Of a DNA stretch of 64,000 bases, positions 13,330 through 54,048 are shown in pieces. Numbering within the stretch: position 1 is the stretch's first letter; each line of letters begins with the position of its first letter. Made by a program: the position numbers and the translations under genes. Source of the stretch: Kiritimatiellota bacterium (GTDB taxonomy: Bacteria; Verrucomicrobiota; Kiritimatiellia; Kiritimatiellales; Tichowtungiaceae); contig JACNKZ010000055.1 in assembly GCA_014381785.1 (NCBI GenBank), forward strand, positions 36,937 to 100,936. Direction: 5' to 3'. Under the pieces are notes generated by a model. That model saw nothing but the letters and a program-made list of their open reading frames with translations. It was not told the origin of the DNA and made no database searches.

Positions 13330-13439
13330 TTCCAAACATTGGAAAAAGATTCACCACGGAACACACTAAAACCACAGAAAGTTCCAAGGTTTGGAAGCAG
13401 GTTGAGCCTGCACCCATCGTTTTGCCCAACCCTTGGAAA
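13330..13439. repeat. xerC-topA intergenic cluster of TTCCAAKGNTTGGAA palindromes (13330-13344, 13382-13396, degenerate 13424-13438)
   Basis: TTCCAAACATTGGAA and TTCCAAGGTTTGGAA, 52 bp apart; degenerate copy 42 bp further. Confidence 0.9.
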
Positions 13440-18464: not shown

Positions 18465-19073
18465 CTATTTTATTCCAGGCCGTTTTCTTTTCGCTGAAAA
18501 CAGCTCCATCTGTGACTCCCTGAGCAACCCGTGTGTTTTGAGGATGCGCAGGATCTGGAGCAGATCCGATTTCTCATAGTTTTTGGCGACATCAAGGTGC
18601 TCCACCAGCTCAAGCAGCATGGTGCGGAACGAGAGGACGCCGTCGACACCGTTTTCACGCATCATCGCCAAGGTTTCTTCATGCAGATCGGCGGAGGCGG
18701 TCAGGTCGGAGACGCAGAGGATTTTAGTGACAGAGCCCGGCCCGAGAATTTTGCGCGCCTCTTTGGTAACCGGCAGTTCGGTAAAGCGGAAAATCTCCGG
18801 ACTCTTTTTGAGCGTCGCCGGGCTGAAGCGATCCGTGTGCCAGCCGCGGATACTCACCACCGCCCGCTGCACCTTGGCCAGATTTTTAGAATCCCAAACC
18901 ACTTCCTTCGGGGTATTAAACACTCCGGCCTGGCCGGGGCGGGTGATGAGCAGGTCGATCTCCTCGACATCGTGTTTATGGCGCGCAACCACCTGATGCT
19001 TGTTGGGCTGAATGACAAAAAACCCGAGCGTCTCAAAATACTCGCGAACAATCAGCTCATTGACCGATGCCAT
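18465..19073 (-). CDS. Uncharacterised protein, possible PD-(D/E)XK nuclease-like core
   Basis: 'HKHDVEEIDLLITRP...EVVWDSKN' (E-x-D...D-x-K pattern); overlaps aroB 3' end by 17 nt. Confidence 0.55.
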   Translation of the reverse strand: MASVNELIVREYFETLGFFVIQPNKHQVVARHKHDVEEIDLLITRPGQAGVFNTPKEVVWDSKNLAKVQRAVVSIRGWHTDRFSPATLKKSPEIFRFTELPVTKEARKILGPGSVTKILCVSDLTASADLHEETLAMMRENGVDGVLSFRTMLLELVEHLDVAKNYEKSDLLQILRILKTHGLLRESQMELFSAKRKRPGIK

Positions 19074-20199
19074 TCCAGACCTCCTCCATCAGCTCTTCAG
19101 GAACTTCGCATCCGAAATCGACATGCCCGATCCGGTCTGCGAGCACAAACTTCGGCAGGCCGCCGACTGTTTTCTTGTCGACCGCCATCGCGGCGCGCAA
19201 ATCGCTCCACGCCAGCCTGCCCCGCCGAAGGCCTTGGGGCCCCGGCGCCGCAACCGGCAGAGCCAGTGCGGCGAGCAGGTTTTCAATGCGGTCGGATTCT
19301 TCAACCAAAAGTCCTTTGAGAGCCACCGAGAGGCGCGCGGCATAGACCATGCCGATTGCAACCGCCTCGCCATGGAGATATTCGCCGTAGCCCGCCGCGT
19401 TTTCGATGGCGTGCCCCAGCGTGTGCCCAAAATTTAAAATGCCGCGCAACCCGCCTTCGCGTTCGTCCTGACGAACCACTTCGGCTTTGATCTCGCAGCA
19501 CTTGGAAATTATTTTCCCAAGGCAGCCTGAGTCTGCACCCCTGTTTTTTTCCGAACATTGGAAAAATGATTGCCCGCCGGTGCTACCGGCTTCCAAGGAT
19601 TGGAAAAGTTCTTCGTCCCAGATGACGCCGTATTTGACGACTTCGCTCATGCCGGCGGCCAGCTCGCGTTCCGGCAGCGTTTTGAGCGTATCGAGGTCGA
19701 CCATCACCAACTCGGGTTGATGAAATGCGCCGACGAGGTTTTTGCCAGCCGGAATGTTGATGCCGGTTTTGCCGCCGACGGAGCTGTCGACCATCGCCAG
19801 CAGCGAGGTCGGCACCTGCACAAATTGGATGCCGCGCAGCCAGCTGGCGGCGGCGAAGCCGGTCAGGTCGCCTATGACGCCGCCGCCGAGCGCGACCATA
19901 AAGCATTTACGGTCGAGCCGGGTTTCGGCCGCCTTGGCGTAGAGATTCATCAACTGCGCCTGGCACTTGGTCGGCTCACCGGCGGGAAGCACTTCAAGAA
20001 CCGGGTCGAATCCGGCTTTTTCCAAGGTTTGGAAAACGGTGTCAGCGTAGAGCGGCGCGACGTTTTCGTCGGAGACAATCAGGCAACGTCCGGTCAGCCC
20101 GGCGGCTTTGCAGGCATCACCCAGAGTGTCAAGAATTCCCGATCCGATGCGGATGGGGTATGAGCGGTCGCCAAGGTCTACTGTTACGTCGTGTGTCAT
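19057..20199 (-). CDS. aroB: 3-dehydroquinate synthase, with unusual internal segment
   Basis: 'QVPTSLLAMVDSSVGGKTGINIPAGKNLVGAFHQP', 'NFGHTLGHAIENA.GYGEYLHGEAVAIGM'. Confidence 0.95.
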   Translation of the reverse strand: MTHDVTVDLGDRSYPIRIGSGILDTLGDACKAAGLTGRCLIVSDENVAPLYADTVFQTLEKAGFDPVLEVLPAGEPTKCQAQLMNLYAKAAETRLDRKCFMVALGGGVIGDLTGFAAASWLRGIQFVQVPTSLLAMVDSSVGGKTGINIPAGKNLVGAFHQPELVMVDLDTLKTLPERELAAGMSEVVKYGVIWDEELFQSLEAGSTGGQSFFQCSEKNRGADSGCLGKIISKCCEIKAEVVRQDEREGGLRGILNFGHTLGHAIENAAGYGEYLHGEAVAIGMVYAARLSVALKGLLVEESDRIENLLAALALPVAAPGPQGLRRGRLAWSDLRAAMAVDKKTVGGLPKFVLADRIGHVDFGCEVPEELMEEVWNGIGQ

Positions 20200-23633: not shown

Positions 23634-24268
23634 GCAAACTTCGGCTCGACGAAAACGGGCGGATGCATGTAGAGCGGGTCGAGAGGCTCGGGTTGTGTCT
23701 GAAGCAACGCCAGCTCAGCGACATCTTTAGCGTGCGGAAAGCGCGCACTTCCAATGGTTGGGAAAATCTCTGTTAACCGCTCGGCCTCCGGGCTGACCAC
23801 AACGGTTCCTTCCGGCACGGAGATCTCGTCATACGCGACGAGTTTCCAATCATTGGAAAGTTTAATGCTTCCGTTTTCCAATGCTTGGAAAAATCCGATC
23901 CAGACCTGTCCGCGGCGGGCATCACCGACGACGGCAATTTCTTTGGCACCCTCGCGGCTAACGGCAAAAGCGAGCGCCGCGCCGCTGCTGACAGCACGCA
24001 CGTCGTCTTTGCCCGGCAAGGCGAGTGCTTGGGCGACCGCAAAACTCATGCGCATGCCGGAAAACGACCCCGGCCCCCGCCCGACCGCAAACAGGGATAT
24101 ATCGCTATACGATATATGCGCCTCTTCCATCAGATTTTCCAATGTTTGGAAAATGGTGTTGTGGCGCACGCGTTCGGCGATCCAGCTTTTCTCCGCCAGC
24201 AGCTCGCCGTCTTTAAGCAGCGCCAGCGAGCCCTTCCGTGATGAACATTCAATGCCTAAGGTGATCAT
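23630..24268 (-). CDS. tsaB: tRNA threonylcarbamoyladenosine biosynthesis protein TsaB
   Basis: 'MITLGIECSSRKGSLALLKDGEL', 'FAVGRGPGSFSGMRMSFAVAQALA'. Confidence 0.92.
   Translation of the reverse strand: MITLGIECSSRKGSLALLKDGELLAEKSWIAERVRHNTIFQTLENLMEEAHISYSDISLFAVGRGPGSFSGMRMSFAVAQALALPGKDDVRAVSSGAALAFAVSREGAKEIAVVGDARRGQVWIGFFQALENGSIKLSNDWKLVAYDEISVPEGTVVVSPEAERLTEIFPTIGSARFPHAKDVAELALLQTQPEPLDPLYMHPPVFVEPKFA
24097..24117. repeat. Inverted repeat ATATATCG-CTATA-CGATATAT
   Basis: Perfect 8-bp arms, 21 bp total; near-identical to 39065-39085. Confidence 0.85.
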
Positions 24269-24690
24269 AGCGGGCTCTCCACAATGGCGATGGTGCGCAC
24301 CTGCTCATCCTCGCCGCGCTCGAGGCGGATGTGGATGGCGCCGGGCGGAATTAGCTCGGCGGCGCGTTCGGCCCATTCAATAACGGTGATGCCGTCGGTT
24401 TCCAGATATTCATCAAGTCCAAGATCGTAGGCTTCTTCGGGGCCGCCTAGCCGATACAGGTCAATGTGATGAAACGGGACAGCTCCTTGATATTCACTGA
24501 TGAGAGTGTAGGTCGGGCTGCAGACCGGCTCATTAACGCCTGCGGCCTGTGCGAGCCCCTGAGTGAAACAGGTTTTTCCCGCACCCAGGTTGCCATGCAA
24601 GGCGATCACCGCCGGAAGTTCCAGGGTTTGGAAAAATTCGGCCGCAATTTTCCAGGTATTGGAAGGGCTGTTAGAAATCCAGATGCTCAT
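24265..24690 (-). CDS. tsaE: tRNA threonylcarbamoyladenosine biosynthesis ATPase TsaE
   Basis: 'ALHGNLGAGKTCFTQGLAQAAG', 'SPTYTLISEY', 'FHHIDLYRL'. Confidence 0.95.
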   Translation of the reverse strand: MSIWISNSPSNTWKIAAEFFQTLELPAVIALHGNLGAGKTCFTQGLAQAAGVNEPVCSPTYTLISEYQGAVPFHHIDLYRLGGPEEAYDLGLDEYLETDGITVIEWAERAAELIPPGAIHIRLERGEDEQVRTIAIVESPL

Positions 24691-27161: not shown

Positions 27162-28169
27162 TCATTGTAAATTTTCCACCATTCGAAGAATGGTGTTTCC
27201 GATGGTCTGCATGCTCTCCGCAGACAGTTTGTCCATCGTATCTTCGGGCGTATGCCAGTAGTCGTTAAGACCCGGCGCGGAACCATAATCGAAATCAATC
27301 ACATCAATGGCCGGCAACCCGGCGAGCAGGAACGGAACGTGATCATCCAGAATGGATCCTTTGCCGAGACTGAACGCCGGGCGTACCCCCAGCTGATGCG
27401 CGGCAAAAAACAGATCTTTCATCAATTCCCGTGTGCTGTTGCGCGGCACTGTAACGTTTAAATTTCTGTCTCCGATCATATCGAGAATGATCACAGCCTC
27501 GACATGCGCTGCGCCGCCCGCCTCAACGATCTGCTGCGCCAAGCGACGGCTTCCGTGCAACCCGTCGGTCGGGCCGTATTCTATGCGGCACTCCTCCCCA
27601 TCAAAAAAGGCGACCAGAAATTCTGTCTCCATCGGCCCTTTTTCAGCAAGCACCCGGGCCAGCTCCATCAGAACGCCCGAACTGGATCCGGAATCGTTTG
27701 CCCCCTGAAACTCCGGAGAAATTCCCGCTTTGGTATCGAAGTGCGACCCGATCACAATCAGCCGCTTGGTTTTACCGGGCAGACGTCCCAGCACATTGTT
27801 GAAAAACATCTTTCCGGACGGAGTCTCCTCCGAAAACGTGTCGATGGTGGTTTTGCAACCCACCGCAGAGAGCTTTGCCTGGAGATGAACCGCTGCACGG
27901 CGAGCTCCGCCGGTGCCTGCGTCGCGCGGACGAATCGCCGCCAGCGCCTCTGTTTCCGCAAACGCTTTCGCGCCATCAAAGACGGGGGACTCTGCCTTAC
28001 CGCATCCACACAGCAACAATATTCCAAGGATTGGTAAAATCTGTGCGCCCCTATGCAATAGGGTTCCAAGGCTTGGAAAAATCTGTAGGCCCCTATGCAA
28101 TAGAGTTCCAAGGCTTGGAAAAACCCGCGCGTCTCTATGTAATGGAGTTCCAGACATCGGAAAGTCCAT
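27162..28169 (-). CDS. M28-family peptidase lipoprotein; true N-terminus uncertain because leader is a 42-bp tandem repeat
   Basis: 'IGSHFDTKAG', 'GANDSGSSSGVLMELAR', 'FFDGEECR'; lipobox-like 'LLLCGCGK' preceded by repeated 'FPSLGTLLHRG.QI'. Confidence 0.8.
   Translation of the reverse strand: MDFPMSGTPLHRDARVFPSLGTLLHRGLQIFPSLGTLLHRGAQILPILGILLLCGCGKAESPVFDGAKAFAETEALAAIRPRDAGTGGARRAAVHLQAKLSAVGCKTTIDTFSEETPSGKMFFNNVLGRLPGKTKRLIVIGSHFDTKAGISPEFQGANDSGSSSGVLMELARVLAEKGPMETEFLVAFFDGEECRIEYGPTDGLHGSRRLAQQIVEAGGAAHVEAVIILDMIGDRNLNVTVPRNSTRELMKDLFFAAHQLGVRPAFSLGKGSILDDHVPFLLAGLPAIDVIDFDYGSAPGLNDYWHTPEDTMDKLSAESMQTIGNTILRMVENLQ
28022..28162. repeat. 42-bp tandem repeat, about 3.4 units, each starting with a TTCCAA-N3-TTGGAA palindrome
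   Basis: Palindromes begin at 28022, 28064, 28106, 28148; units share 'CTGTgnGCCCCTATGCAATAG'. Confidence 0.9.
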
Positions 28170-42520: not shown

Positions 42521-42566
42521 TTCCAACCATTGGAAAACAAAAAGGCTGATCTTCCAAACCTTGGAA
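42521..42566. repeat. Pair of palindromes in speA-hppA intergenic region, 31 bp apart
   Basis: TTCCAACCATTGGAA (42521) and TTCCAAACCTTGGAA (42552). Confidence 0.95.
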
Positions 42567-52008: not shown

Positions 52009-54048
52009 ATGAGCGACCCATTAAACAGCACCGAAGCGCAGAAAGAAATAGCAAAACTGCGCGCCGAGATCGAGCGGCACAACCGGCTCTACTACATCGA
52101 GGCCGCGCCGGAGCTAACGGACCGCGAATTCGACCTGATGCTGCGCCGCCTGACCGACCTTGAAACGCAGTTCCCAGAGTTCGCAGACCCGAACTCCCCC
52201 ACTCAGCGCGTCGGCGGCGAACCGCTCAAAGGGTTTCAAAATGCGGCGCACGCCGTGCCGATGATGTCGCTCGACAACCTCTTCACCCAAGAGGAAGTCG
52301 ACGCCTATGCCGCTAAACACGAAGGCCCGTTTGTGCTGGAGCCAAAAATCGACGGCATCTCCATCTCCGTGCGCTACGAAAACGGCCAGTTTGTTCAAGC
52401 GCTCACCCGCGGCGACGGCGAACGCGGCGACAATGTCTCCGCCAACTTGAAGACCATCTCCAGCTTGCCGCTGCGCCTACAGTCTGATAATCCGCCCGCG
52501 GTGTTTGAAGTGCGCGGCGAGGTCTACATGACCCGCAGCGGCTTCGCCGCGCTCAACGAACAGCGTCAGGAGGCGGGACTCGAACCGTTCGCCAACCCGC
52601 GCAACGCCTGCGCCGGATCGATGAAACTGCTCGACCCGCGCGAAGTCGCCAAACGCCCGCTCGATATTCTTTTTTACGGAACCGGCCAGCTCGACGGGAT
52701 TGAGTTTTCCACCCACCGAGAACTGCTCGACACCCTGACGGCCTTCGGCTTCAAAACCGCCCCCTTCGCGCCGACCTGCGCGGACGGTTCCGACCTTTGG
52801 AAAAACATCGAACAGCTCGACCAAATGCGCGACGAGTTTGAATACGAAATCGACGGAGCCGTCATCAAAATCGACGACCGCTCCCGCTACGCCGGGCTCG
52901 GCGGCACCGCCAAATTCCCGCACTGGGCCACCGCCTACAAATACCCGCCCGAACAGGCCGAAACCACGCTGAAAGAAATCACCATCCAGATCGGACGCAC
53001 CGGCGTGCTGACGCCCGTCGCCGAGCTCGAACCCGTCCAGCTGGCCGGAACGGTCGTGAAGCGCGCCACCCTGCACAACGAGGACGAGATCCAGCGCAAG
53101 GACATCCGCATCGGCGACCGCGTGATCGTCGAAAAAGCCGGCGAAATTATTCCCGCCGTTGTGCGCGTCGTAAAAAAGAAACGCACCGGCATCGAGCAGC
53201 CCTTCAATATGATCGCCGCCTGCGAGGCGCTCGGCATCAACCCGGTCAAGATTGAAGGCGAAGTGGCCTGGCGCATCGACGACCTGCACCACCCCGCCAT
53301 GCTCAAGCGCTGGCTGACTCACTTTGCCTCGCGCAACGGAATGGATATCGATGGGCTTGGCGAATCGATTGTTGAGCTGCTCGTCGATGCGGAGCTCGTC
53401 AAAAGCCCCGCCGACCTCTACAGCCTGACAAAGCCGCAACTGCTCGGCCTCGAGGGCTTCAAAGAGAAGAAAGCGCAGAACCTGGTCGACGGCATCGAAG
53501 CCAGCAAAAGCCGCCCATTCGACCGCATCCTCTTCGCGCTCGGCATCCGCCACGTCGGCAGCGGCGCGGCGCGTATCCTCGCCAAGGAGTTTCCAAACAT
53601 TGGAAAACTGATGGAGGCGGACGTCCAGGCCTTGGAAAAAATCCGCGACATCGGTCCAATCGTTGGAAAAAGCATCGTCGATTTTTTCCAATGTTTGGAA
53701 AACCGCAAGCTGATCGAACGGTTGCAGGCGGCGGGCGTCAATTTTGAGCAGGCCGCCAAAGGCGGCAGCGACGAGCTGGCGGGCCTGACGTTTGTTTTGA
53801 CCGGCACCATGGAGAGCCTGAGCCGCGATGAAGCGGGCGACGAAATCCGCAAACGCGGCGGATCGGTTACATCGAGCGTTTCCAAAAACACGGACTATGT
53901 CGTCGCGGGTGAAAAGGCCGGCTCCAAGCTGGCCAAAGCCGAAGCCCTCGGCGTGAAGGTGCTCGACGAAGCCGCCTTTTTAAACCTGATAGGCTCGGCC
54001 GCTCAACCGCAGGGGAAATCGGGGCAACAGGAGCTTTTTTTAGGATAA
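52009..54048 (+). CDS. ligA: NAD-dependent DNA ligase
   Basis: 'LEPKIDGISISVRYENGQFVQALTRGDGERGDNVS', C-terminal BRCT 'LTFVLTGTMESLSRDEA'. Confidence 0.97.
   Translation: MSDPLNSTEAQKEIAKLRAEIERHNRLYYIEAAPELTDREFDLMLRRLTDLETQFPEFADPNSPTQRVGGEPLKGFQNAAHAVPMMSLDNLFTQEEVDAYAAKHEGPFVLEPKIDGISISVRYENGQFVQALTRGDGERGDNVSANLKTISSLPLRLQSDNPPAVFEVRGEVYMTRSGFAALNEQRQEAGLEPFANPRNACAGSMKLLDPREVAKRPLDILFYGTGQLDGIEFSTHRELLDTLTAFGFKTAPFAPTCADGSDLWKNIEQLDQMRDEFEYEIDGAVIKIDDRSRYAGLGGTAKFPHWATAYKYPPEQAETTLKEITIQIGRTGVLTPVAELEPVQLAGTVVKRATLHNEDEIQRKDIRIGDRVIVEKAGEIIPAVVRVVKKKRTGIEQPFNMIAACEALGINPVKIEGEVAWRIDDLHHPAMLKRWLTHFASRNGMDIDGLGESIVELLVDAELVKSPADLYSLTKPQLLGLEGFKEKKAQNLVDGIEASKSRPFDRILFALGIRHVGSGAARILAKEFPNIGKLMEADVQALEKIRDIGPIVGKSIVDFFQCLENRKLIERLQAAGVNFEQAAKGGSDELAGLTFVLTGTMESLSRDEAGDEIRKRGGSVTSSVSKNTDYVVAGEKAGSKLAKAEALGVKVLDEAAFLNLIGSAAQPQGKSGQQELFLG
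53591..53700. repeat. Four phased TTCCAA-N3-TTGGAA sites in ligA (53591, degenerate 53623, 53654, 53686)
   Basis: Start-to-start spacing 32, 31, 32 bp; two perfect, one 1-mismatch, one 2-mismatch. Confidence 0.9.

Follow-up and report, generated by a model that had tools for sequence, protein, structure and literature searches.

A helically phased, highly repeated 15-bp palindrome of Kiritimatiellia and a composite unit within aroB

In the 64-kb stretch of DNA analyzed here (the window), which belongs to a Kiritimatiellales MAG, the aroB gene contains a segment that the initial annotation had singled out as longer than expected, together with a 43-nt sequence that has a second copy elsewhere in the window. 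The locus raises the question of what was inserted into aroB, and of what the palindromes are that surround both 43-nt copies. The palindrome, hereafter P, is the 15-bp sequence TTCCAANNNTTGGAA, usually in the form TTTTCCAA-NCM-TTGGAAAA.

The aroB segment and the 43-nt element

The features concerned are as follows:

19057..20199, minus strand: aroB (3-dehydroquinate synthase), an open reading frame of 380 aa with three palindromes; orthologues in 51 of 58 relatives
19522..19590, minus strand: part of aroB special to the lineage, between two palindrome half-sites, 69 nt vs. 24 nt in the relative G009 (codon alignment; side-by-side comparison with G010 and G009)
19522..19564, plus strand: 43-mer composed of a degenerate 19-nt core GCAGGCTGAGCCTGCACCC, a spacer and a palindrome (sequence; core intact in the G010 orthologue)
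19549..19563, no strand: P with one mismatch (TTCCGAACATTGGAA), 42 bp from the next P (motif search)
19576..19590, no strand: second hairpin GCCGGTGCTACCGGC, which occupies the 42-bp slot separating two P (sequence)
19591..19605, no strand: perfect P in aroB, codons FQSLE, a site common to orthologues without indel (motif search, codon alignment)
20020..20034, no strand: perfect P in aroB, codons FQTLE; in orthologues P spans these codons too but has other codons in the middle (motif search, codon alignment)
13330..13344, no strand: perfect P, intergenic, 5' of xerC (motif search)
13382..13396, no strand: perfect P, 52 bp (5 turns) from the P at 13330, abutting the core of the second 43-mer (motif search)
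13397..13439, plus strand: second 43-mer, with core GCAGGTTGAGCCTGCACCC, spacer and a P with two mismatches (13424-13438), 42 bp from the P at 13382 (sequence match)

The two 43-mers align without gaps and are identical at 32 of 43 positions, exactly as first described in both coordinates and identity. When 150 random 43-mers were compared with the rest of the window, their best matches averaged 25.5 identities with a maximum of 29, and none of them (0/150) reached 32. The second copy does sit between xerC and topA, just 5' of xerC, and the palindromes said to flank both copies are real, since P with at most one mismatch occurs 42 times in the window vs. 0.19 expected from shuffles; the right-hand palindrome of the xerC-topA copy is the one that carries two mismatches.

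The AroB segment was then compared in a codon alignment of 30 orthologues (the window and 29 from relatives). It exceeds that of G009 by 45 nt, i.e. 15 aa, and that of most of the sister family by 11 aa, and the same length was found in G010 only, in which aroB contains an intact core (GCAGGCTCAGCCTGC, coding strand). The suspicion of an overlong segment was thereby borne out, orthologues other than that of G010 being shorter by 11-15 or more aa. The insert at 19522-19590 took the place of a 31-bp palindrome pair that is still present in G009 and that was seen, within the sister family, in G001 and in diverged form. As judged from this alignment, a dispersed unit was inserted in frame into aroB, in agreement with the proposal that the palindrome belongs here to a larger inserted unit (45 nt added in frame, with a core found about 22 times in the genome).

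The 43-mer itself is a composite, made of a copy of the hairpin core GCAGGCTGAGCCTGCACCC, a spacer and a palindrome, rather than a homogeneous sequence. Genome-wide searches returned 22 copies of GCAGGCTGAGCCTGCACCC with at most one mismatch and 22 of the core pattern GAGYCTGCACCC, vs. none for the reversed pattern, so that the further genomic copies anticipated for the unit do exist. About 13 of the 22 GAGYCTGCACCC copies come directly after a palindrome and most have another one further on; the palindromes bracketing core copies are about 42 bp apart, and the core, usually beside P, forms with it a 42-bp unit. This length equals four helical turns, and phase is kept. Such units (P plus a short hairpin, e.g. 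GCAGGCTGAGCCTGC; one in aroB) would be secondary repeats inserting in or beside P, keeping phase because they are four turns long.

The 19-mer is essentially limited to the genus of the window (22 copies in G000, 21 in G010 and 10 in G009). Outside the genus, single copies were found in two sister-family genomes and 16 copies in one distant family with only three palindromes, indicating that the 19-mer is a separate small repeat. The 42-bp slots at 28022-28120 and 19549-19605 contain short hairpins unrelated to each other (CCCCTATGCAATAGGG, GCCGGTGCTACCGGC, GGCGGAAGTTCCGCC and others), which suggests that several small repeat families share one slot and one length. A dispersed composite unit does interrupt aroB, as the initial annotation proposed; as the main story, it did not hold, since 73 of 89 orthologue comparisons at coding sites were gapless and the insert is an exception. 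The decisive feature is how P is spaced along the helix throughout the genome; that annotation did not see this and described a side branch.

Abundance, helical spacing and origin of the palindrome

Exact P occurs 595 times in the 2.2-Mb genome, while the reversed control occurs once, an extreme genome-wide over-representation of the kind that defines highly iterated palindromes. In a 464-kb sample, TTCCAA half-sites paired only at a spacer of 3 (137 cases, vs. 0-2 at other spacers), and 130 of the 137 middles were NCM/KGN, which represent 8 of 32 possible classes. The density of P with at most one mismatch is about 0.5 per kb, approximately one site per 2 kb. Using a simple gene caller written for this analysis, 133 of 230 sites were placed in coding and 95 in intergenic DNA, the latter being about 4-fold denser in sites. 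Conserved genes showed a higher density (0.57-0.71 per kb vs. 0.15-0.31); large conserved genes devoid of sites in the sample included topA, leuS and valS-like, dnaE-like and smc-like genes, and no site was found in the last 50 bp of genes. Further clusters in the window are listed here:

23749..24664, no strand: six P (0-1 mismatch) in a tsaB-like gene and its neighbour, exact at 23844, 23876 and 24137 (motif search); 23844/23876 form a phased pair at 32 bp and 24619/24650 one at 31 bp (spacing)
28022..28120, no strand: three-P array spaced 42 + 42 bp, its slots occupied by another hairpin, CCCCTATGCAATAGGG (motif search, sequence)
42521..42566, no strand: perfect P pair 31 bp apart, intergenic (motif search)
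53591..53700, no strand: three P at 63 and 32 bp within ligA (motif search)

A search of the window for known RNA families returned one tRNA and nothing else. At another locus (L046, 655-716), a structure resembling a terminator has a palindrome-like hairpin at its tip (CCCCGTTTTTTCCATGTTTGGAAAAACGGGGTTTCTTTTTT). None of the papers searched contained TTCCAANNNTTGGAA, and the string 'palindrom' was absent from the two Pontiella genome papers checked.

Distances between P sites fall at 21-22, 30-32, 41-43, 52-53, 61-63, 72-74 and 83-84 bp and onward, with a period of 10.44 bp (10.44-10.49 across data). Pairs at 17-60 bp were strongly phased (n=55, R=0.94, p ~5e-22), as were nearest neighbours at 17-100 bp (n=65, R=0.91). 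Clustered pairs are not independent and the p-values are accordingly approximate, so the claim is carried by the nearest-neighbour test and by independent genomes, namely the closed relative G009 (3,882,676 bp; n=37, R=0.88, p 5e-13) and G048, in which the phasing repeats. Beyond about 100-200 bp, phasing is weak.

Pairs were plentiful in all 12 genomes searched, with 0 in the control, and in two distant families, where distances of 21-51 bp were allowed, all 78 listed pairs lay at 31-32 bp. Arrays contain up to seven P that alternate at 31 and 32 bp, with a mean of 31.46 in G057 (a hand count from the listed arrays). The DNA inside 31/32-bp pairs is unrelated between pairs, and thus the pairs did not arise by duplication. 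Phasing is equal for pairs of coding sites (n=31, R=0.93) and for pairs in intergenic DNA (n=37, R=0.86). A periodicity of protein helices was rejected as its cause, given that intergenic pairs are equally phased and that coding distances are in many cases (31, 32) not divisible by 3; a function as an RNA hairpin was set aside as well, since the 10.44-bp phasing and the equal behaviour of coding and intergenic sites argue for an effect at the DNA level.

Within coding DNA, the peptide FQxLE was found 62 times vs. 1.33 expected from composition, and in 51 cases it is spelled exactly as P, for which codon usage predicts 0.7%. In orthologues, P often spans the same codons while the middle one differs. 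Together with the gapless comparisons, this indicates that coding sites are mainly made and kept by substitution: on the evidence of the alignments, most of them formed in place at fixed positions. FQTLEK-like segments in proteins of these bacteria should be read as effects of the DNA site, and not as protein motifs.

Spread across genomes

The number of exact sites per genome in the class Kiritimatiellia ranges from 0 to 1339 and differs even within one genus. At least a dozen families of this one class carry P, in a patchy manner; many genomes of the class are not enriched in sites and manage without them. As a rule, other classes of the phylum have 0-5 sites, enrichment being confined to Kiritimatiellia. 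Some families keep P mostly as intergenic-looking arrays of 2-7 sites (G057 and G218, L322-L337; G159, L338), while the genus of the window and others also spread it through coding genes.

In samples of the G009 chromosome (L088-L096, L136-L139, L236-L255), density tends to be higher near the GC-skew switch, the likely origin. This origin-centred gradient is weak (rho ~-0.4, p ~0.01) and confounded with gene conservation.

Low-site genomes were considered as a path to an ancestral operator, and this was abandoned because single pairs stood beside varied genes and no one regulator gene emerged. Several neighbours of these single pairs resemble, by eye, horizontally acquired restriction or toxin-antitoxin genes. 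Pairs at 31/32 bp often adjoin restriction, nucleotidyltransferase or PIN-toxin-like genes, also by eye; the low-site loci were L305 (1332-1378 and 12182-12228; G054:C28), L307 (G056:C30), L309 (G050:C392) and L306 (G310:C27), and in G054 an 11-kb stretch has a pair on either side. An array also adjoins an HsdS-like gene, by eye, in the site-rich G218 (L318, G218:C1).

The genes located 3' of P clusters, named by eye, were mutL in two genomes, pheS, thyA, hisG, leuS and a dinB-like gene. An autoregulated promoter of a small DNA-binding protein was rejected on the grounds that the clusters lie upstream of unrelated genes. Phased clusters upstream of mutL in both G000 (L050) and G009 (L090) may represent a conserved site.

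A putative dimeric protein, alternatives and known systems

Strict palindromy, helical register, indifference to reading frame and to the intervening DNA, and an origin by substitution together argue for a cooperative dimer on one face of B-DNA. We infer that P is the site of a putative sequence-specific dimeric protein of Kiritimatiellia, acting cooperatively on one DNA face genome-wide, and assign this reading a probability of roughly 0.6. Abundance, palindromy, phasing, formation by substitution, patchy spread in the class and the aroB insertion are observed, whereas the existence of such a protein, its cooperative binding and its function are deduced. Neighbouring bound dimers would touch on one face of the DNA, and such contacts would keep sites at whole turns (2, 3, 4, 5, 6 and more, with 3 preferred) in arrays of 2 to 7. 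The likeliest role would be to structure the chromosome or to regulate genome-wide in the manner of a nucleoid protein, and the site geometry resembles that of Lrp/AsnC operator arrays. The selection acting on P as DNA would be strong enough to write FQxLE into proteins.

More tentatively, hundreds to more than 1000 palindromes might be kept in helix register by a chromosome-wide, sequence-specific nucleoid protein, with selection for register reshaping proteins, a proposal to which we give somewhat less than even odds. If true, this would be chromatin-like organisation of a new class in bacteria. Most nucleoid proteins of bacteria show weak sequence specificity, in contrast with a strict 15-bp palindrome present up to 1339 times per genome in helix register. 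Were the bound protein confirmed, chromosome-wide cooperative binding and DNA-level selection overriding protein sequence would become testable.

The DUS/USS sequences of Neisseria and Haemophilus are DNA-uptake signals, and P could likewise have accumulated by point mutation in core genes as competent cells import P-bearing DNA, its palindromy and phasing then reflecting a dimeric or multimeric uptake receptor. The density of sites, the formation of coding sites by substitution, the enrichment in conserved genes and the patchy gain and loss would all suit uptake, as would the presence of ComEC in nearly all genomes and the 0-1 sites of genomes lacking it, except for one genome that is 59% complete. 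However, ComEC is equally present in site-free genomes, and helical phasing and arrays of up to seven sites give no known benefit to uptake. We consider this explanation unlikely, though the strongest of those competing with a cooperatively bound dimer.

As for the identity of the binder, a single class-wide Lrp/AsnC protein would match a 6+3+6 site. Lrp is known to use sites spaced by two or three turns (PMC2995911). Nearly all genomes of the class encode Lrp, which is lost in family f3 and in G084, where 0-1 sites were found. Nevertheless, many site-free genomes have it as well, genomes of one genus that share the site differ in the residues of its recognition helix, and in the sister genus these residues are similar in site-poor and site-rich genomes, making it an improbable candidate. 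The Lrp/AsnC proteins inspected (L116-L135), one in each genome, combine a strongly conserved effector domain with a variable, partly acidic recognition helix; the single protein may have lost ordinary DNA binding. A ParB/Noc paralogue was rejected, as the site-rich G000, G009, G018, G019 and G048 each have one ParB match and copy number does not track sites.

A mobile palindrome of the REP/REPIN or MITE type, transposed by a RAYT (Y1) enzyme or a comparable one, is very unlikely, in spite of the hundreds of dispersed copies and of the 19-nt core that acts as a small dispersed insert beside P. Coding copies occur mostly at gapless orthologous positions instead of showing the presence and absence left by insertions, flanks and middle bases vary between copies, and inserts are not expected at whole helical turns. 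RAYT transposition was discarded, a Y1 (PF01797) match being absent from the site-rich G057 (111 sites), G086 (183) and G075 (58). Least probable is a HIP-like origin, in which a methyltransferase and mismatch repair, and not a bound structural protein, would account for the excess of sites, since, even though cyanobacterial HIP1 is also a highly repeated palindrome with patchy replacement (PMC4390886), P is 15 bp long with a degenerate middle, far longer than methyltransferase-linked HIPs, and no such mechanism yields 10.44-bp phasing.

Compared with known systems, in-frame insertion of a dispersed palindromic unit, as in Rickettsia palindromic elements (RPE), was examined and found for the 42-bp hairpin unit in aroB, the likeness lying in the form of insertion. 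Unlike REP/REPIN and RPE, P is mostly created by substitution and needs no Y1 transposase. The sites matS (bound by MatP), NBS (Noc) and parS (ParB) are palindromes spread over the chromosome, matS having a 3-bp middle, and P resembles them in its palindromy, its chromosome-wide presence and, for matS, its 3-bp middle; to our knowledge, these sites number tens and not hundreds to a thousand, and do not form helically phased arrays. P is similar to DUS/USS in density, in its coding and intergenic presence and in its bias to conserved genes, although we know of no DUS/USS that is a palindrome with a variable middle or is phased at whole turns over many sites.

HIP1 of cyanobacteria has a very high copy number, is patchy across relatives and is thought to arise by point mutation (PMC4390886). 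Unlike P, it is 8 bp long, contiguous and methyltransferase-linked, and helical spacing is not mentioned in that paper. Very high abundance, patchiness and formation by point mutation are the traits that P shares with it. The geometry of P has its closest counterpart in a dimer-type palindrome repeated at whole turns on one face, as in Lrp/AsnC arrays. Some Lrp/AsnC sites share the 6+3+6 layout. Operators of these feast/famine regulators are (semi-)palindromic dimer sites, two or three turns apart on one DNA face (PMC2995911), and P shows these distances as well as 42, 52/53 and 63 bp. In contrast with Lrp/AsnC arrays, which are limited clusters at target regions, P reaches hundreds to 1339 exact copies per genome and lies also inside genes.
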